A stretch of 33,837 nt of DNA from a virus. A program made the translations under genes and the position numbers. The notes below the pieces were generated by a model that made no database searches, was not told the origin of the DNA, and worked only from the letters and a program-made list of their open reading frames with translations. Positions 139 through 33,759 of the stretch are shown piece after piece (within the stretch, counting starts at the first letter, position 1; every line of letters begins with the position of its first letter). The stretch covers positions 1 through 33,837 of IMG/VR virus record IMGVR_UViG_3300046411_000516; one strand, 5' to 3'.

Positions 139-606
139 ATGGCTGTTATAAATGCCACTAGCTTTCTGTTATTAAAAGATACAACAGTTGTAGGGCATTC
201 TAAAAGCACTAGCTTTAATATTAATGTAGATTTACCAGATGCTACTACCAAAGAAAGTTTAGGGTGGCAAGAGGTTATACCAGGTGTTAAATCTGGAACA
301 ATTAATTGTGAATGTTTAACTGATTATTCTGACACTTTAAATTTTGAGCAGTTAGCCGATATGGTGCTAACTAAGGAAAAGGCAACTTTTATTTTTAAAG
401 ACAATGTAAATCCTAAATTAATAGTTAGAGGTGAGGGGTTTGTAAGCTCAGTTGATGAAACAGCTCAGTTTGAAACTGCTACTAGTTTTAACTTAGAAAT
501 AAACCTTACTGGTGTATTTACAATAACAGATCCTAGTGAGGGTAGAACTTGGGAAAACATCTTTGAAAAGTGGGAGGATATATCAGATAACTGGGAAGAT
601 GTATAA
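139..606 (+). CDS. Tail tube (major tail) protein, TP901-1-like, copy 1
   Basis: This 155-residue protein resembles the TP901-1-type major tail protein family, which polymerises into the tail tube. The core pattern is GHSxSxSF, then DLPDATTKES, then GWQEVIPGVKSG, then a second half rich in short beta-strand segments. The same pattern recurs in the next gene, so the two are paralogues. The last ~20 residues are an extension with tryptophans spaced exactly seven apart (WENIFEKWEDISDNWEDV), absent from copy 2. It begins two bases after the upstream stop and sits two genes upstream of the chaperone/tape-measure block, as expected for a tube gene. Which copy is the main tube subunit cannot be told from sequence. 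Confidence 0.8.
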   Translation: MAVINATSFLLLKDTTVVGHSKSTSFNINVDLPDATTKESLGWQEVIPGVKSGTINCECLTDYSDTLNFEQLADMVLTKEKATFIFKDNVNPKLIVRGEGFVSSVDETAQFETATSFNLEINLTGVFTITDPSEGRTWENIFEKWEDISDNWEDV

Positions 607-1148: not shown

Positions 1149-1535
1149 ATGGCAAACAAAAAAAGAGGTTACTATACCTTAAAAATAGGTGGGAAAATGC
1201 GAACTATGCATTTTTCAATGAATTTCTGGTCAAACTTTACTGAATTTTTACAAGTACCTTTAGACAAAATAGGTGATGTTTTTAGTGGTGGTATTTCAAT
1301 AAAAGCAATTATTGGTTTAGTTTATTCTGGTTTATTAGCACATGATCAAGAACAAGGCAATGAAATTGATTACAATGAATTTAAGGTTGGCATGTGGTTA
1401 GAAGATTTTGATGCTGATAAATTAAATGATGTTGTTGAATCAATGATGCAATCAAGAATACTTGGTAATGATTTAAACATGGGTGTTGCTAGAAATATTA
1501 AAAAAACTACAAAACCAACTAAAGAGGGAAAGTAA
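1149..1535 (+). CDS. Tail assembly chaperone, gpG-like (pre-frameshift product)
   Basis: This 128-residue protein lies between the tube genes and the tape measure, exactly where siphophages encode the G / G-T tail assembly chaperones that coat the tape measure before tube polymerisation. I chose the ATG at 1149 (MANKKRGYYTL) over an in-frame ATG at 1116 because the latter lies in a run resembling a leader, and MAN fits the start style of neighbouring genes. The last codons read GAG GGA AAG TAA: a G GGA AAG heptamer ends directly at the stop codon, making this the shorter product of a -1 frameshift pair. No database family is recognised from sequence alone; the role rests on position and the frameshift signal. 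Confidence 0.75.
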   Translation: MANKKRGYYTLKIGGKMRTMHFSMNFWSNFTEFLQVPLDKIGDVFSGGISIKAIIGLVYSGLLAHDQEQGNEIDYNEFKVGMWLEDFDADKLNDVVESMMQSRILGNDLNMGVARNIKKTTKPTKEGK

Positions 1536-1864
1536 GTAGCCAACTTGATTGGGATTCTCTATTAGATTTTTATATTGGTCAGGTTGGCATAACTCCAGAT
1601 TCTTTTTGGAAAAATACTTGGAAAGAAAATCATTTACTTGGTGAATCCTACATGATCAAAACCAACTTACAATGGGAGCAAACCAGATATTTAGCTGCTA
1701 TGCTTTACAATGTAAATTGTGATAAAAAAGGTCAAATGATTACACCAGATAAATTATTCCCTTTGCCACAAGATGTGTATTTAGGCAAAGGAAAACCAAA
1801 GTCAACTAAAGAGCAATTTTTAAAATTTAAAAACAAAGTAGATAAAAGTAAGCTACCAAAATAG
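1149..1864 (+). CDS. gpG-T-like tail chaperone fusion made by -1 programmed frameshift
   Basis: A -1 shift at 1526-1532 fuses the 128-residue chaperone to a second open frame running from 1532 to the TAA at 1862-1864, giving about 238 residues. The frame between the shift site and the first ATG of the second frame (1652) is free of stops and looks protein-coding: QLDWDSLLDFYIGQ, then VGITPDSFWKNTWKE, then a region around WEQTRYLAAML. This hydrophobic/aromatic pattern resembles gpT-type chaperone tails, which contact the tape measure and tube subunits. Starting only at 1652 would discard that region. The fusion is inferred from sequence; its efficiency is unknown. Confidence 0.72.
1526..1532 (+). 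other. Programmed -1 frameshift slippery site GGGAAAG
   Basis: The heptamer reads G GGA AAG in the zero frame, the X XXY YYZ form. It is identical to the lambda G/GT slippery sequence as I know it. TAA follows immediately, which should favour pausing and slippage. Confidence 0.8.
1539..1588 (+). promoter_or_regulatory. Possible frameshift-stimulating stem-loop
   Basis: GCCAAC at 1539-1544 is perfectly complementary to GTTGGC at 1583-1588. The spacer from the slippery heptamer is six bases, typical for stimulatory structures. The loop is long (38 bases) and the stem short, so a pseudoknot or no stable structure are both possible. Confidence 0.35.
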
Positions 1865-1903: not shown

Positions 1904-4207
1904 ATGGCTAAATTAAGATTAGATTTACAGCTAACTGGGTTCAAACAAGCATCTGGAAAACTTAAACAATTCGGCAACAAAATGAAGTCGATTGGTGCTA
2001 GTATGCAAAAGTTTAGTTTACCATTGGCTATCGCTGGTGGTGCTGCTATAAAGATGGCATCCGATTTTGATAAAAATATAACTAAAATAAAAGCTCTTGT
2101 TGGTACTGCTGGTGAAGATCTAAATAAGTTTTCTGAGGCATCTAAAAGGATGGCTAAAGAAACTGGTATCTCATCTTCTGAAACTAGTAATGCAATGTTC
2201 TTTATTGCATCGGCTGGTTTAGAGGGTGCTGAGGCAATAGCAGTTTTAGAAGCTGCATCAAAAGCTAGTGCTGCTGGTTTAGGTGATGTGGCACAAGTTG
2301 CTGATTTAGCAACATCTGCAATGAATGCTTATGGTAGTGGAAGTTTATCGGCAGAAGCAGCAACAGATGTTTTAACTGCTGCTGTTAGAGAGGGTAAATT
2401 AAATAGTGAGGAACTAGCTGGTGCTATGGGACAAGTATTGCCAGTTGCATCAAATATGGGTGTTAGTTTTAATGAGGTTGGTGCTGCAATGGCTGCAATG
2501 TCAAGAACTGGTACAAATGCAGCTTCTGGAGCAACCCAATTAAATAGTATTTTATCTGGCTTACTAAAACCAACAAAACAAGCTGAGGATGCATTGAAAT
2601 TGATGGGATTATCTAGTGCTGGTTTAAAACAACAAATTAAAGATGAGGGATTACTTAGTGTTTTAGAAACTTTAAAAACAGAGTTTGATCAAAATAGTGA
2701 TGCTGCTGCTCAAGTGTTTCCAAATATTAGAGCATTAAGAGGGGTTTTAGATTTAACTGGTAAAAGTGCAAAAACCACAAAAGAAATATTTAATGAATTA
2801 AATGCATCTCAAGGAGCAACAAAAAAAGCATTTGATGATACTGCTCAAAGTGCAAGTTTTAAATTAAAGAAAGCATTAAATAGTGCTAAACAATCATTTT
2901 CTGAAATGGGATCTGTATTGCTTACATCATTGTTGCCAGCTATACAAAACATTACTAAAGTTATAACTAGTTTATTTACATCATTTCAAAATTTAGATGG
3001 CACTATACAACAAATGATTATAGGTTTAGGTGTTTTAGTTGTAGCATTGCCAACCTTATTAACTTTATTTGGTAGTTTAACTAGTATTCTAGGAGCTTTA
3101 TTATCTCCTATTGGTTTGATTGCTGCTGGATTGGCTGGTATTGCTTATATAATAAGCACCAATTGGAATGAAGTTGCTCCAGTTTTAGTTGGTTTATATA
3201 ATAGATTTGTTGATTTATATAATTCATCTATTGGATTAAGGTTAGCAATACATGGCATTGGAGCTATATTTAAAAGTGTATTTGTAGGTGCTAAAGTTTT
3301 AGTAAAACAATTTTTAAATGTTTTTGGCACTTTATGGAATGTAATAAAAGAATTTTCTGAAAAAGGATTAAAAGGTAGTTTTTCGGATGTTCTTGCAATG
3401 GGATTTGCAAAAGGAGAAAAAATAGCACAAGATGGAGCAGAAGAAATTGGTCAAACATTTGTAGATGGATTTACAGATGCATTAGGTTCTAAATTAGAGC
3501 ATAAAACAGTAGATCAATTAAATACAGCTTTAACAAATGCTGGTGAAAAAGCTAAAGGTTTATACACTAACTTTTTGAATCAAATAGGTATTGGTTCTGG
3601 TGGTGGTGGTGGTGGTCAATCAGAAGATGAAGCTGGTGGTGGTGGTGAAATAAAAGCTGTTCAAGATATAGATAAGGTAGAGAAAAAAACTGATCAACTT
3701 AAAGAAAAATTTTTAAACCTAGCATTAACATCAAATATGGTTGGTGAAGAAATTAGTAGTGCATTTATGAATGCTTTTTCATCAATGATGGAGGGCGAAA
3801 ACTTTTTTAAATCATTAATAAAAGGATTAGTTGCCTTAATTAAAAAGTTAATAGCAGCAGCAATTGCAGCTTTTGTACTATCTACATTGCTAGGTGGTAT
3901 AGGTATAGGTGGCATAGAAAGTGGCACAAAAGGTTTTAAAAAATTATTTGGATCATTATCTGGTTTAGGCAATATTACTAAAATGGCATCTGGTGGTATT
4001 GTAAGTTCACCAACTTTAGGATTAATGGGTGAATATCCTGGTGCAAGAAGCAATCCTGAGGTTATTGCACCACTTGATAAATTAAAATCATTAATTGGTG
4101 ATAGGGGTACATCACAAGTTCAAGTAGGTGGTCAATTTACTTTAAAAGGTCAAGATTTAGTGGTAGCATTACAAAGAGCAAACAACAATAGAAATAGAGT
4201 TATATAA
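1904..4207 (+). CDS. Tail tape measure protein, TP901 type
   Basis: This 767-residue protein sets tail length and is threaded through the tube. The N-terminal ~60 residues are basic and helical. Residues ~80-280 carry the TP901 core (KETGISSSETSNAMFFIASA, LATSAMNAYG, EELAGAMGQVLPVASNMGVS). Hydrophobic, probably membrane-inserting segments occupy ~370-416, and a glycine-rich linker with runs of five to six Gly lies at ~565-582. A second hydrophobic helix pair is at ~640-670. The C terminus (MASGGIVSSPTLGLMGEYPG) is typical of the family and likely contacts the tail tip. It follows the chaperone pair, and its TAA overlaps the next ATG (TAATG). Confidence 0.92.
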   Translation: MAKLRLDLQLTGFKQASGKLKQFGNKMKSIGASMQKFSLPLAIAGGAAIKMASDFDKNITKIKALVGTAGEDLNKFSEASKRMAKETGISSSETSNAMFFIASAGLEGAEAIAVLEAASKASAAGLGDVAQVADLATSAMNAYGSGSLSAEAATDVLTAAVREGKLNSEELAGAMGQVLPVASNMGVSFNEVGAAMAAMSRTGTNAASGATQLNSILSGLLKPTKQAEDALKLMGLSSAGLKQQIKDEGLLSVLETLKTEFDQNSDAAAQVFPNIRALRGVLDLTGKSAKTTKEIFNELNASQGATKKAFDDTAQSASFKLKKALNSAKQSFSEMGSVLLTSLLPAIQNITKVITSLFTSFQNLDGTIQQMIIGLGVLVVALPTLLTLFGSLTSILGALLSPIGLIAAGLAGIAYIISTNWNEVAPVLVGLYNRFVDLYNSSIGLRLAIHGIGAIFKSVFVGAKVLVKQFLNVFGTLWNVIKEFSEKGLKGSFSDVLAMGFAKGEKIAQDGAEEIGQTFVDGFTDALGSKLEHKTVDQLNTALTNAGEKAKGLYTNFLNQIGIGSGGGGGGQSEDEAGGGGEIKAVQDIDKVEKKTDQLKEKFLNLALTSNMVGEEISSAFMNAFSSMMEGENFFKSLIKGLVALIKKLIAAAIAAFVLSTLLGGIGIGGIESGTKGFKKLFGSLSGLGNITKMASGGIVSSPTLGLMGEYPGARSNPEVIAPLDKLKSLIGDRGTSQVQVGGQFTLKGQDLVVALQRANNNRNRVI

Positions 4208-26235: not shown

Positions 26236-29200
26236 ATGGCAACATCATATACTGGTTTAAGGGTTCAAGATACTTATAATGCAATAATCAAAATTGGAGA
26301 CAATTCAAACTTAACTGGAACTCCAAAACTTTTAAGTGATGGTTTAGGTAACGATTCACCTTTATATTTATCTGGAACTAGATTAGGTATTGGTATTTCA
26401 CCAGCTTATCAGTTTCATACAAGTGGTAATGCTAAAATTGGAGGTAATTTAATTGTATCTGGTAACCTTACAGTAAATGGTACACTTACATATTTAAATG
26501 TACAAGATTTAGCAGTTGAAGATCCAATAATAAAATTAGCAAAAGACAATACAGCCAATACACTAGACATAGGTTTGTTTGGTAAGTATGTAGCAACTGG
26601 TACAAAATATAAAGGTTTTTTCAATGATGCTAGTGATGACAAGTTTAAGCTATTTATAGGCACTACTGTTGAGCCAACAACAACTGTTGATACATCAGCT
26701 AGTGGATATACAATTGGAACTCTTGTGGCTAATTTAGAGGGCAATGTATCTGGTAATGTAACTGGTAATGTAACTGGTAATGTAACTGGCAATGTAACTG
26801 GTAACTTAACTGGTAATGTAACTGGTGGTACTGTAAGTGGAACAACAGCTACTTTTAGTAGCATTGGTCAATTTGCTGGTGCTATAAGAATTACAGAAAG
26901 TGCAACAGCTCAACGTATTTTGATTGGTAATCAAGATTCTGGTGGAGTAAATAAACCAGCGATTATTATGGGTGCTAATGCTAGTTTATATTTTGGTTAT
27001 GGAGATAGTTGGACAGGTGAGGGTGGTAACATGACAAATATACTTGTTATTAGTTCAGCAGATTCTAGTTCAACTTTTAGTGGTAATATTTTACCTAATG
27101 CTGATTCTACTTATAACATAGGAGCAAACAATAATAAATGGGCAGAGGGATATTTTGATCATTTATATATTGGTGAAACTGGCAATAATCCTAGAATAGA
27201 TATTTATACAGAGGATGAAACTGCTGCAATTGCAGACACTTTTGCTGATACAACAACAGATAAATCATATATATATTTTAATGCTGGTACATCAAGTAAT
27301 GACCCTGGATATATAATGCATGAAACATCTAATAGTGAAACAAATGAGGGTGTTTTACATTTAGTGCCATCTGATGACAATGATTCTGGTGATTATGTAA
27401 GTATTCATGGAACTAATGATGCTGATGCTTTAAGATTACACACAAATGGTTTAATAGAAACTGCAAATGGTATAGGATTACAATTAACATCAGCTAGTGG
27501 CACAATAACTTTAAATGATTCTATTTCTGGTACAACTGGTACGTTTAGTGGTCAAGTAAGTATTCCAGAAACACCAACAGCAGATGCTCATGCAGCATCT
27601 AAAAAATATGTAGATGATAATACTGGTAGTGCTGATGTTGCAAAAAGATTAGAGGTTACAGTAAAAAATGTAAGTGGTGGCTCACTTGCAAAAGGAGTTG
27701 TTGTCCATGCGGCACCAACAGCAACCCCACCAAGTGGCAATGTTATAGAGGTTGTTCCAGCTGATGCTAATGTAGTGGCTAGTATGCCAGCAATAGGTGT
27801 ATTAAATGAAACTATTGCAAATGAGGCAGAGGGTGAAGCTGTAATGTTTGGAGCAGTAAGTGGGATAGATACATCTAGTTTTAGTATAGGAGATGAATTA
27901 TATGTGTCTGAAACTGCTGGTGAATTTACAGCCACAAAACCAACTGCATTTAGTAGTCAAGTACAAAAAATAGCAGTAGTAATAAAATCTCATGCTACTA
28001 ATGGATTAATAAAAGTGTTTGGAGCTGGTAGGGCAAATGATGTTCCTAATAGAGTTGACAGGGATATGAATTTTACTGATGATTCTAAATTAATTTTTGG
28101 CGATGATTCTGACTTATTTATAGTACATAACGATACAAATGGTGTTATCGAAAACGTAAAAGGTGATTTTGTCATACAAAATAAAGCTGATGATAAATCT
28201 ATAATATTTAGATGTGATGATGGTAGTGGTGGTATTATTGAATATTTTAGAATTGATGGCTCTACAAATACAGTACCATTTGGAAGATCACCACACATTG
28301 TAGATAATTTAAAATTATACTTTGGTAACGACACAGCAAATGATGCTAGTATTAAGTGGGATTCTACAGCTAGTCAGTTGTTTATAGATGGATCAAGTAA
28401 ATTTTTAGATGGATTAGATATTGTAGGTGATTTATCTGTAACTGGTAATTTTAAAAATGATTTAATATTTGAAAGAGCATCAACAAGAAAAATAATATTT
28501 AATTCAGATCTTAACTTTGCTAGTGATTTAGCATTTTTATATTTTAATGATAATTCAACTTTTCACAGAACTGGTACTGAAAATGTTAGATTTAGTATCG
28601 GTGCATTTAATGACTTTAGTAATTCATCAACACATTCAGATGCTTTAGATTTACAAGGTGGTGCGAGATTATATTTAAATGCTGGTAACTGGGATAGTGA
28701 ATTAGATTCAGCCATTGGTGATCCATCAACTGGAGCTTATTTAGATGATTACCCAATACAGTTTGCGGTTAATAATGATGTAAAAGTTAAAATTAACGAT
28801 AGTGGTCATTTATATGTTGATAGTGGTGAAATAGTAGTTACTCCATCAACTGGTTATGGTAGAATAGAGATTGGTGGTGCAAGTGGTGGTTATATAGATT
28901 TAAAAGCTCCAGCTAGTGATAATTATGATTTAAGATTTATTACTGGTCAGGGTGGTAACGAAATAACTACTGCTGATGGCGATCTTAAAATAAATACATC
29001 TAACACTCTTGCTTTAACAATAGACACCTCACAAAATGCCACATTTCAAGGTAGTGTAACTGCTGATTCTTTTGTTAAAGATGGAGGTACATCATCACAA
29101 TATTTAATGGCAGATGGTAGTGTTTCAACTACTGCTGGTGTTGATGGCAGTGGTACAGCTAATGATGTTGCAATGTGGTCAGATAGTGATACATTAACAG

Positions 29201-32200
29201 ATGCACCAATAGCTATAAGTGGAAATAATGCAACTTTTGCAGGTAATGTAACGATAGGTGATAATAGTGCTAGTGAAATATTTTTAGCATTTAATTCTTC
29301 ATCAACAGATTTTGCTTTAGGTGCTAATGGTAGTAATTTTATGATTGGCACAAGCTCTGATTTAGATACTGGCAATTTAATAACTTTATCAGGTGCAAAT
29401 AATCGATTAGGAATTGGAACTACATCGCCTGCTTCTTTACTTCACATAAAATCTACTGCTACAACACCTCAAGGTATAACAGTAGAGGGAGGAGACGAAT
29501 CTTTTATTAAATTTTTAACTGGTGCAGTTAAAAACTGGGGATTAATCACCACTAATCTAGCAGCTAGTGATTTTGGAATTTATCAAAGTAATGCAAATGG
29601 GGGTGACCCATTTACGGCAGGAACAGCTAAATTATATTTTGATGGCTCAGGAAACGCAACTTTTGCTGGTGATTTAACTGTTTCTGGTAATAATGTTAGA
29701 TCAAAAATATTTGAAAGCCATGTTGGTCATCCATATTTAGATTCTGATGGTTCAAACAACTATGTAAAGGGTGGTAATAATGGTGTAAATACATTATATG
29801 GTCAGTATAATTATTTTAGATCGCAAGGTCATATAATACCACATTCTGATTCTACTTATGACTTAGGTGGAACATCAAATTATTGGCGAAACCTTTATGC
29901 TATAAATCTTACATTACATGGTACTGCTACTGGAACAACTTATACCTTATATAATGGTACAGCAAATGGTGGTACTGGTACAACAGCAGTTCAATATTAT
30001 GAGTTATATAGTAAATCTGGTGCTGGTGGTCAAGATTACTTGCATTTTGAATTAAAAAGTTTTAATAGCTCTGAATATTCAGCAGAGGTAGAAATTACTG
30101 TACCAGTTTATTCTGGTTTTTCTAGTTCTTATGGAACAATGGATGAGGGTCAAGGGATACAATGTGAAATTAAATATGGTGGATTAGCAACACAAACAAG
30201 TTCTATGATTGAAATTATAGAAACTGCTGATTTAAGCTCAACATCAAGTTTAACAAAGTTATATTTGAAAATACAACCAGCAGCAAATAATACACAAATT
30301 CAAGTAAAAAATTACTCAGATTGTACTATAAAATTTGCAGAGGGTAATTCTTGGTCAACAACAGCTCCATCTAATCAAGCAAGAGCATTTAGTTTTATTA
30401 CAGCAGCTACAAGTATAAATGATTCATTATCTATTAAAAGAGGTGGAGAAGTTGATATTATTGGTGATGGACATTTGTTTATAGGTGAAAACAACACAAC
30501 ACCAAAAGTAGATATGATGTATTTAGATCATCCTAGTGGTGCTGGATGGGATACAAGAATATTTATAGGTAAGTCAAATGATTTGCCTAATGGTGCTAGT
30601 TTTCCAACAACAACTGCTGCTGGTGGTTATGGAATACAATTTCAATCTAATTCAGATGGTGCATTTTTTGGAATAGAAGATTATGGCTCTAATCAATTTC
30701 GACCAGTAATAAACTGGGGTGATGATACTAGTGATACACCAATGACATTTAGGTTTAATGGTAGTAGTATTTTTACAATAGATTATCAAGGTAACATAGC
30801 TGGTAGAAGTGGATATTTTACTGGTAACTCAGGATTACCAGCAACATCAGGTACTAATCAAACAAAATTGTTACGACTTAAAGCATCTAATAATGCTACA
30901 CTTGATATGGGTTGCGACCATACAACTGCAAATGGGTGGTTACAAGTAACAGATGTAACTGATTTATCTCAAGAATATAGTTTACTACTGCAACCTAATG
31001 GTGGATATACAGGAATTGGCTTGACTAATCCTCAGTACCCTCTTCATGTTGTTGACACAATAGGTACTAGAGTATTAAAATTAGGTCATGGAGCTGCTCA
31101 TGCTAGAATTTCAACTGATGATGCAAGTAAACCATTAGATTTACAAATAAACTCACAGAATGCTTTACGAGTTGCTACAAGTAAAAATGTACAAATATAC
31201 AGAGCTGGTAATTCTAATGGTGGTACTTTACTGTTAGGACCACATGGTAGTGGATCAAATAAATGGTCATTTTTAGCTGGTACTCATTACAATCAAGATA
31301 CTGGTAGTGGTAATGGCTCTGGTTCGGCTGGTGTTGCTCTTATTGGTGCTTTTTCTGATAGTTCAGTTAATCGTATATATATAGGGGGTGGACCATATGA
31401 AATAAATGCAGCAACTGAAATTCAATTTTGGACACATACATCAAACACATCTACACTAGGTGGAACTGAGAGAATGAGAATACAATCAGATGGTATCCTT
31501 AAAATTATGCAAGGTAATGCTATTCAAAATGGTGATTATATGCATATCGGAACTGGTTCAGCTAATTATTTGGGTTTAATTGGATTTAACAGAAATACTG
31601 CTACTGGTACTATTTTTAACACAAGTTATGGTGCTTTTCAAATGCATAATCATAATGGGACATTTAGATTTCAAGGTTATAGTGGAGCTGGTAACAATAG
31701 ATTTGAACACGCATTTTATAACGATGGTAATATTTTTATTGATGGTAAAGTAGGTATAAATACTACTACAATAACTAGTTATGGTTCTGGTTATGGTAAT
31801 TTAGATGTATCAGGAACTAGTGGTGGTTATTTAACATTAATAGCAACTAATAATTCAGTTAAAGTAGATATTGCAGCAGAAACAAATGCTGGATATGTAG
31901 GCACAAAAACTGGACATCCTCTTATAATTAGAACTGATGATGCAGAGAGAATGAGGATAGATTCATTAGGTAAAGTAGGTATTAATGTTACAAATCCGAG
32001 TGCTAAATTAAACACAAATATTGCAGTATCAGGTACTTTATTAGCATATCAAAGTGGTACAAGTGCAACTTTTGATGCTGGTGCTAATATTGCAGTTACA
32101 CATGATAGTTCGGCAATAGGTAGTGGTGTGGCTGCTGGTTTACTTTTAGCTAATAATAATAACAGTAATAATGCTATATCACCTTTAATTGCATTTAGTG

Positions 32201-33759
32201 CAAAATCGGCATCTAATGGCTACAACCATACTTATGCTGCTATATATGGTCAGAAAAAAGCAACTGGTGCAGACACAAACTGGAATAAAGGTGATTTAAT
32301 TTTAGCAACATCTAGTGGTACTGGTGTTAATGAAGTAATGAGAATTACAAAAGATTCTAGGGTTGGTATAAATAACAATGATCCACAAGCTACATTAGAA
32401 GTTGGTGGAGCTGGAGCAACATTAAGAGTTGGACCAAGATATGCAACTAATGATAGAGATTTTGTTGATTTAATTGCTGCTGGTACAGACAGTAAAGTTT
32501 TATCAAATAATGAGAGATTTCATATTGAAAACAATTCTGGTCATATAGTTATAAATCCATCGGCTTATGGAGTAGGAATAAAAACCACAGCTCCAATGTA
32601 TAATTTACAAGTTCAGAAATCTAGTCAAGCAGCACCAGCAATTATGATTGGTGGAGCTTATTATGGTGGACCAAGATTACAAACTTATGGATTAGATGCT
32701 GATGCTGGTGCATGGATGGGATTAGGAACTGATATGAGTGGTGCATCTTATGAACATAATGTATATTTTCCTGATCACAACAATAATGGTAGATTAAGTT
32801 TTGGTACATACAATGGCACTACTTATTCTGAAAAAATGAATATTACAAGAGCTGGTTTAATTGGAATGGGTGGTGCTCCAGAAGTAAGATTGCATGTTTA
32901 TGGACAACAATATTTTCAATTTGATACAGTAAGTGGCGAGGGTACTAAATTTGAAAACAATACATCTGGTGGTGCTATACAAATAGGTTTCCAGCAAAAT
33001 GACACAGATGGAATGCACCACAGAGCATATTTGCGTGTAAAAAAAGACAGCAATGGTACTTATGGTGGTCGAATGGATTTTAGAATAAGAAATCATGGTA
33101 CTGCTTCAATACTAACTGCATTAACAATTAGATCAAATAAGTATGTTGGTATAAATAAAGAAAACCCTAGTTATCAGCTTCATGTTGGTGGTTCGGCTGA
33201 AATAGATGGAACATTATATTCTGACAGAGTAGCTGCTGGAATACCAATGCCATCACATATAGTTGATGCTTATTCATCAACAAGTGGTGTTTTTGCTGGT
33301 AGATTTGTATATGCTGGAACAAGTGGCTCAGATTGTGCAATGCTTTTAAGATTAGCTGGTGGATCAACAGCACCTAGTTATGTTGATTTTATTTATGGCT
33401 CTGTACAAACTGGATATATAACAACTAATGGATCATCAACTTTTTATGGATCAGCATCAGATTATAGATTAAAAGAAAATGTAGTTGAATTAAATGGTGC
33501 TTTAGATAGGTTAGATAATTTACAACCAAAAAGGTTTAATTTTACATTAACACCAGAACAAACAGTTGATGGATTTTTAGCACATGAAGTTGCTGATGTA
33601 GTACCAGAAGCTATACATGGTGTAAAAGATGCTGTAAATGAAGATGGTGAAATTATAGCACAAGGTATTGATCAAGCAAAATTAGTACCTTTATTAGTTG
33701 CAGCAGTACAAGAATTAAGAGCTGAGGTTGAATTATTAAAATCTCAAATAAATTCTTAA
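26236..33759 (+). CDS. Giant tail fibre/adhesin with S74 chaperone
   Basis: This 2507-residue protein fills 7.5 kb, over a fifth of the window. It is an almost continuous beta-structured Gly/Ser/Thr/Asn-rich fibre. Recurrent 'LGIGTTSPAxxLHV'-type turns occur many times (e.g. RLGIGISPAYQFHTSG, GIGLTNPQYPLHV, YVGINKENPSYQLHVGGSAE), as in trimeric phage fibres. The C terminus carries the peptidase-S74 intramolecular chaperone: S2408 and K2413 in SDYRLKENV form the Ser-Lys dyad, followed by LQPKRFNF, GFLAHEVADVVPEA and a coiled coil LVAAVQELRAEVELLKSQ. The chaperone guides trimerisation and then cleaves itself off. It surely recognises the host cell. Confidence 0.88.
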   Translation: MATSYTGLRVQDTYNAIIKIGDNSNLTGTPKLLSDGLGNDSPLYLSGTRLGIGISPAYQFHTSGNAKIGGNLIVSGNLTVNGTLTYLNVQDLAVEDPIIKLAKDNTANTLDIGLFGKYVATGTKYKGFFNDASDDKFKLFIGTTVEPTTTVDTSASGYTIGTLVANLEGNVSGNVTGNVTGNVTGNVTGNLTGNVTGGTVSGTTATFSSIGQFAGAIRITESATAQRILIGNQDSGGVNKPAIIMGANASLYFGYGDSWTGEGGNMTNILVISSADSSSTFSGNILPNADSTYNIGANNNKWAEGYFDHLYIGETGNNPRIDIYTEDETAAIADTFADTTTDKSYIYFNAGTSSNDPGYIMHETSNSETNEGVLHLVPSDDNDSGDYVSIHGTNDADALRLHTNGLIETANGIGLQLTSASGTITLNDSISGTTGTFSGQVSIPETPTADAHAASKKYVDDNTGSADVAKRLEVTVKNVSGGSLAKGVVVHAAPTATPPSGNVIEVVPADANVVASMPAIGVLNETIANEAEGEAVMFGAVSGIDTSSFSIGDELYVSETAGEFTATKPTAFSSQVQKIAVVIKSHATNGLIKVFGAGRANDVPNRVDRDMNFTDDSKLIFGDDSDLFIVHNDTNGVIENVKGDFVIQNKADDKSIIFRCDDGSGGIIEYFRIDGSTNTVPFGRSPHIVDNLKLYFGNDTANDASIKWDSTASQLFIDGSSKFLDGLDIVGDLSVTGNFKNDLIFERASTRKIIFNSDLNFASDLAFLYFNDNSTFHRTGTENVRFSIGAFNDFSNSSTHSDALDLQGGARLYLNAGNWDSELDSAIGDPSTGAYLDDYPIQFAVNNDVKVKINDSGHLYVDSGEIVVTPSTGYGRIEIGGASGGYIDLKAPASDNYDLRFITGQGGNEITTADGDLKINTSNTLALTIDTSQNATFQGSVTADSFVKDGGTSSQYLMADGSVSTTAGVDGSGTANDVAMWSDSDTLTDAPIAISGNNATFAGNVTIGDNSASEIFLAFNSSSTDFALGANGSNFMIGTSSDLDTGNLITLSGANNRLGIGTTSPASLLHIKSTATTPQGITVEGGDESFIKFLTGAVKNWGLITTNLAASDFGIYQSNANGGDPFTAGTAKLYFDGSGNATFAGDLTVSGNNVRSKIFESHVGHPYLDSDGSNNYVKGGNNGVNTLYGQYNYFRSQGHIIPHSDSTYDLGGTSNYWRNLYAINLTLHGTATGTTYTLYNGTANGGTGTTAVQYYELYSKSGAGGQDYLHFELKSFNSSEYSAEVEITVPVYSGFSSSYGTMDEGQGIQCEIKYGGLATQTSSMIEIIETADLSSTSSLTKLYLKIQPAANNTQIQVKNYSDCTIKFAEGNSWSTTAPSNQARAFSFITAATSINDSLSIKRGGEVDIIGDGHLFIGENNTTPKVDMMYLDHPSGAGWDTRIFIGKSNDLPNGASFPTTTAAGGYGIQFQSNSDGAFFGIEDYGSNQFRPVINWGDDTSDTPMTFRFNGSSIFTIDYQGNIAGRSGYFTGNSGLPATSGTNQTKLLRLKASNNATLDMGCDHTTANGWLQVTDVTDLSQEYSLLLQPNGGYTGIGLTNPQYPLHVVDTIGTRVLKLGHGAAHARISTDDASKPLDLQINSQNALRVATSKNVQIYRAGNSNGGTLLLGPHGSGSNKWSFLAGTHYNQDTGSGNGSGSAGVALIGAFSDSSVNRIYIGGGPYEINAATEIQFWTHTSNTSTLGGTERMRIQSDGILKIMQGNAIQNGDYMHIGTGSANYLGLIGFNRNTATGTIFNTSYGAFQMHNHNGTFRFQGYSGAGNNRFEHAFYNDGNIFIDGKVGINTTTITSYGSGYGNLDVSGTSGGYLTLIATNNSVKVDIAAETNAGYVGTKTGHPLIIRTDDAERMRIDSLGKVGINVTNPSAKLNTNIAVSGTLLAYQSGTSATFDAGANIAVTHDSSAIGSGVAAGLLLANNNNSNNAISPLIAFSAKSASNGYNHTYAAIYGQKKATGADTNWNKGDLILATSSGTGVNEVMRITKDSRVGINNNDPQATLEVGGAGATLRVGPRYATNDRDFVDLIAAGTDSKVLSNNERFHIENNSGHIVINPSAYGVGIKTTAPMYNLQVQKSSQAAPAIMIGGAYYGGPRLQTYGLDADAGAWMGLGTDMSGASYEHNVYFPDHNNNGRLSFGTYNGTTYSEKMNITRAGLIGMGGAPEVRLHVYGQQYFQFDTVSGEGTKFENNTSGGAIQIGFQQNDTDGMHHRAYLRVKKDSNGTYGGRMDFRIRNHGTASILTALTIRSNKYVGINKENPSYQLHVGGSAEIDGTLYSDRVAAGIPMPSHIVDAYSSTSGVFAGRFVYAGTSGSDCAMLLRLAGGSTAPSYVDFIYGSVQTGYITTNGSSTFYGSASDYRLKENVVELNGALDRLDNLQPKRFNFTLTPEQTVDGFLAHEVADVVPEAIHGVKDAVNEDGEIIAQGIDQAKLVPLLVAAVQELRAEVELLKSQINS
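26740..26823 (+). repeat. Seven 12-base tandem repeats in the fibre gene
   Basis: Seven near-perfect copies of GGTAATGTAACT encode repeated G-N-V-T/S units (NVTGNVTGNVTGNVTG). They differ at 1-3 positions (third-base C, CT in the sixth). Such in-frame tandem repeats can expand or contract without a frameshift. Confidence 0.9.

Follow-up and report, generated by a model that had tools for sequence, protein, structure and literature searches.

The tail assembly chaperones gpG and gpGT of bacteriophage lambda are produced by a programmed -1 frameshift (Levin 1993; Xu 2004, 2013; review PMC5009743). The shift takes place at a GGGAAAG heptamer near the end of the G gene, between the tube and tape measure genes, with the zero-frame stop codon 15 nt past the heptamer, and the ratio of G to GT is 30:1. 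Chaperone frameshifts with the same gene position and logic are found in other phages and in archaeal tailed viruses (the SEA-PHAGES set; HCTV-1, HCTV-2, and HCTV-5). The mean distance from heptamer to stop codon is 26 nt in the SEA-PHAGES set and 36 nt in the Xu set (PMC10885494). A stop codon immediately 3' of the slippery sequence is known from Rous sarcoma virus and barley yellow dwarf virus (PMC4373837), which are unrelated viruses with unrelated genes, translated by eukaryotic ribosomes. A search of the accessible literature yielded no tail chaperone site of this kind for flavobacterial phages; one elsewhere is possible.

We analyzed a window of 33,837 nt, which is the whole stretch of DNA under study (IMG/VR record IMGVR_UViG_3300046411_000516). 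The data point with high confidence to programmed -1 ribosomal frameshifting between the two tail assembly chaperone genes of a virus that resembles siphophages and probably infects a Bacteroidota host. The heptamer, its register, its place near the end of the G-like gene, and its location between tube and tape measure are those of lambda. However, the zero-frame stop codon lies 0 nt from the heptamer, a shorter distance than in lambda or, on average, in the two phage sets, and in this the locus resembles the two eukaryotic viruses. We class the site as a further case of the already known frameshift in phage tail assembly chaperones, and not as a homologue of the lambda genes.

The slippery site and its two reading frames

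The G-like tail assembly chaperone gene (positions 1149-1535; this and all other listed features are on the plus strand) encodes 128 amino acids from the ATG at 1149, and its last zero-frame codons are GAG GGA AAG TAA. The heptamer G GGA AAG occupies positions 1526-1532 in the zero-frame register, as an earlier sequence-only reading of the window had claimed, and the TAA at 1533-1535 adjoins it. The T-like -1 frame (1526-1864), which reads GGG AAA GTA AGT, comprises 112 codons (GKVSSQ...KLPK) up to the TAG at 1862-1864, and 110 of them lie beyond the GK that is common to both frames. Its first ATG is codon 43 (position 1652), about 120 bases past the heptamer. Both the 110 open codons and the stretch before the first ATG had been noted in the sequence-only reading and were found as described.

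The closest upstream stop codon in the -1 frame is the TAA at 1520-1522, so the change of frame is confined to about 1523-1532, and GGGAAAG is the sole slippery heptamer in that interval. The locus thus has an X XXY YYZ heptamer in the zero-frame register inside the overlap of the two frames, which is the arrangement of a programmed -1 site. A shift at the heptamer would give a predicted G-T fusion of 128 + 110 = 238 residues, with the predicted junction sequence KEGKVSSQ; a junction peptide would span EGKVSSQLDWDSLLDFYIGQVG. A fusion of this length had been proposed before, and the frame geometry and conservation support it as the predicted product.

The GGGAAAG motif was observed twice in the whole window, while 2.98 occurrences were expected, so the motif by itself is no more frequent than chance predicts. 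Folding of the RNA after the heptamer as a single sequence was moderately special (z -1.65). The motif count and the single-sequence fold are weak evidence and carry no weight in our case. What is above chance is the position of the heptamer, together with its conservation among relatives.

Gene neighbourhood and protein similarity

The G-T pair is placed between the major tail protein and the tape measure protein, as is the lambda pair. The gene at 656-1078 encodes a tail tube protein (Pfam Phage_tail_2, 1.9e-18), and that at 1904-4207 a tape measure protein of 767 amino acids (PHROG 1533, 3.6e-70; PhageMin_Tail, 4.4e-31). These matches confirmed the placement given in the sequence-only reading. 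Two tail tube paralogues stand in tandem in the window (139-606 and 656-1078), both of which match Phage_tail_2.

The G-like protein matched PHROG 2115, a 'tail protein' family (E 1.4e-5). Its AlphaFold model (pTM 0.70) matched structures in BFVD with E values down to 6.8e-6. Most of these matches were unnamed, and several, with E values of 2e-3 to 6e-2, were named tail assembly chaperone. Among predicted viral structures the model also matched the G-like protein of Cellulophaga phage phi18:2, and it had no significant match to a solved structure in the PDB. The T-like frame matched PHROG 16333, a family of unknown function, with an E value of 1.7e-6, and this family thereby gains a likely role. 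The match of the T-like frame to Phage_TAC_6 was weak and below threshold, and its structural model was poor (pTM 0.33). When the two proteins were compared with lambda G and T by hhalign, no similarity was detected, with probabilities of 0.2 and 0.0 percent. The description of the site as lambda-type is therefore right for the heptamer and the arrangement, but does not extend to detectable similarity of the protein sequences.

A separate, sixth T-protein scan was made for comparison with Cellulophaga phages. The genes gp56 and gp57 of Cellulophaga phage phi18:1 have the same gene position as the pair in the window, and the T-like domain is about 30% identical (E 0.02). However, T of phi18:1 lies in the +1 frame (equivalently -2), and the overlap contains nine consecutive A. 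In this phage (L082:3974-4306; NC_021790 30610-30942) the G-like gp56 is overlapped by the T-like gp57, and both are annotated as hypothetical proteins. The overlap is a candidate for a +1/-2 shift or for transcriptional slippage.

At the far end of the window, positions 26236-33759 form one open reading frame of 2507 amino acids, whose C-terminus resembles, by eye, an intramolecular chaperone of the peptidase S74 type.

Conservation of the heptamer and the stop codon

A search of IMG/VR with the T frame matched hundreds of contigs. These contigs come from uncultured viruses, and many of them nearly duplicate one another, so counts are stated per distinct junction and, where possible, on a tree, which was made from the fused proteins with the slip site masked. 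In total, 166 distinct homologous junctions were collected from scans using five different T proteins.

In the first set of relatives, GGGAAAG was kept in 80 of 80 loci. Among the 166 distinct junctions, the heptamer was GGGAAAG in 124, CCCAAAG in 31, and part of a nine-A run (A AAA AAA) in 11. All three classes stand at one alignment position, lead from G into T by -1 in every case (166/166), and keep the zero-frame register X XXY YYZ exactly. All distinct relatives thus have either the same heptamer or a different slippery one at the site, which is what the conservation check suggested with the sequence-only reading had asked for. At least two switches between classes are required on the tree. 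Because the encoded peptide differs from class to class in both frames (GK, PK, or K-rich), it is the slipperiness that is kept and not the peptide, and this wholesale replacement is strong sequence evidence of selection for slipping. The first two codons of the -1 frame were GGG AAA in 81 of 81 aligned GGG-class sequences; in the window, GGG makes up 4.4% of glycine codons, and the zero-frame codon AAG 15.9% of lysine codons. In the nine-A clade (L227:1778-1789, also L237 and L242), GGGAAAG is replaced by exactly nine A, and transcriptional slippage is possible there.

The zero-frame stop codon was directly 3' of the heptamer in 113 of the 166 junctions and 12 nt further on in the other 53; on the tree, it moved between these two positions at least five times. 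A CCC-class contig, L344, has TAG directly after the heptamer. The direct joining of heptamer and stop codon, a central point of the sequence-only reading, therefore holds for the window and is typical of its clade, but is not universal.

A hairpin downstream of the heptamer

The sequence GCCAACT (1539-1545) pairs with GGTTGGC (1582-1588) in a 7-bp stem that begins six nt past the heptamer. This stem contains the complementary pair GCCAAC (1539-1544) and GTTGGC (1583-1588) that had been seen in the window by itself. If the heptamer's initial G is taken as column 1, the two arms of the stem are columns 14-20 and 57-63. Pairing was seen in 93.6% of the cells across 76 distinct sequences, in comparison with at most 51% for slid versions of the stem. 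Cells with double changes numbered 61, against 24 in shuffles, and the covariation score of the stem was 0.381, against 0.215 when shuffled. At the outermost pair, 14-63, 49 sequences had G-C, 46 had C-G, and none had a mixture. On the tree, all six independent contrasts on supported branches agreed for this pair (p 0.031). Pairs 17-60 and 18-59 changed in the same direction and were not significant alone after correction for relatedness, so that only 14-63 reached significance. The fold was also compared with synonymous recodings that preserve the protein; the median z was -2.5, and p was below 0.05 in 64 of 84 cases. The hairpin in the clade of the window is thus supported by compensatory changes. 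A local hairpin, CCAAcuugaUUGG, was considered as a competitor of the long stem and was rejected, because it leaves the covariation at columns 14-63 unexplained.

Neither the L083/L162-186 clade nor the A9 clade has the stem. The fold in the CCC clade is different and in most cases does not clearly surpass synonymous recodings. The putative stimulator is therefore clade-specific and not essential in general. Since several clades keep a slippery heptamer without the stem, the conserved hairpin might be a by-product of codon conservation with no part in slipping, an explanation that is compatible with frameshifting. We consider this improbable, because compensatory changes at pair 14-63 arose in independent lineages and folding exceeded the synonymous recodings in the proportion given above. 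The hairpin would then act as a stimulator of slippage. With its three interchangeable heptamers, two locations of the stop codon, and several types of hairpin, this one family amounts to a natural experiment on how a frameshift rate is set.

Translation of the -1 frame

The data showed that the -1 frame is protein-coding and under purifying selection. The pN/pS ratio was 0.27 in codons 22-42, between the hairpin and the first T-frame ATG of the window, and 0.25 in codons 43-94, within a range of about 0.25-0.31. Conservation of the -1 frame, which had also been proposed as a check, was thus found even ahead of that ATG.

Gene callers would call two open reading frames here, and T might be translated alone, if ribosomes re-initiate after the TAA or the two genes are coupled there; no fusion would then be made. 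Coupling could occur at the TAA, an ATG is present at 1652, and in some relatives T-frame codon 12, 23, or 38 is an ATG. However, 42 conserved T codons stand ahead of M43, 114 of 166 junctions lack any ATG upstream of codon 43, and M43 itself is kept in only 43 of 81 relatives. Independent initiation does not explain a conserved stretch of 42 residues that has no usable ATG, nor does it account for slippery heptamers that are invariant or exchanged only for other slippery heptamers. The start codons and the conservation led us to reject independent initiation of T, and the two-gene explanation is very unlikely.

A change of frame by slippage of RNA polymerase instead of the ribosome has an even smaller chance of being right. 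It would suit the one clade with a nine-A run, a type of run prone to polymerase slipping, but the runs in GGGAAAG and CCCAAAG are only three bases long, which makes transcriptional slippage implausible for the window. The exact X XXY YYZ register in three classes also argues against it, and the downstream RNA hairpin suits ribosomal slipping. A one-base indel in a single contig would give a similar picture, but a decayed or mis-assembled single gene is refuted, with hardly any probability left to it, by an arrangement common to 166 distinct sequences from many metagenomes and by the purifying selection on the -1 frame.

Host and proposed mechanism

The best isolate matches of the terminase were phages of Bacteroides, Phocaeicola, and Parabacteroides, at about 40% identity, and the only relatives of T among isolates were from Cellulophaga phages. 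These matches make a Bacteroidota bacterium the probable host. The contig L083, of the same phage family, was binned with the MAG of a Woesearchaeota archaeon and was the sole match to a genome contig; it gives no usable sign of the host, as this placement is probably a binning error.

The ribosomes of Bacteroidia are blind to Shine-Dalgarno sequences (PMC9976891). With such ribosomes, an upstream Shine-Dalgarno stimulator of the E. coli style is not expected to work, and no Shine-Dalgarno sequence is seen shortly before the heptamer. A hairpin on the downstream side that takes over from such an upstream signal would fit this host.

In the programmed ribosomal frameshift that we propose, the majority of ribosomes would read GGA AAG and then TAA, and release the 128-amino-acid G-like chaperone. 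Other ribosomes, fewer in number, would meet the hairpin (1539-1588) with their leading edge while two tRNAs occupy G GGA AAG; these ribosomes would slip back to GGG AAA and continue in the -1 frame to give the 238-amino-acid G-T fusion. The adjoining TAA may keep the rate of slipping low, so that G remains in excess. By analogy with lambda, G, present in many copies, would bind the tape measure protein, and the scarcer G-T would recruit the tube protein. A more specific proposal, in which the adjoining TAA acts together with the hairpin as a module tuned for Shine-Dalgarno-blind ribosomes, with the TAA-bound release factor in the A site as brake and the hairpin as accelerator, is speculative and improbable. 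If it were true, the ratio of G to G-T, and hence tail assembly, would track the termination speed of the host. These results extend the tail chaperone frameshift to a large group of uncultured phages, which probably infect Bacteroidota.

A hairpin upstream of the G gene

Between the tube and G genes, positions 1105-1134 form a 10-bp hairpin, AGGGGTATGG/CTATACCCCT, with the loop attgaggaaa. It ends 14 nt ahead of the G start, and it is not a standard terminator, since no T-run follows it in the window. Its stem is fully rewritten between clades with the pairing kept, as in AGACACCTAG/CTAGGTGTCT, AGGCACATGG/CTGTGTGCCT, CCCCTGCATCG/TGGTGCAGGGG, and others. The upstream region folded better than 95% of shuffles in 86 of 124 distinct sequences.
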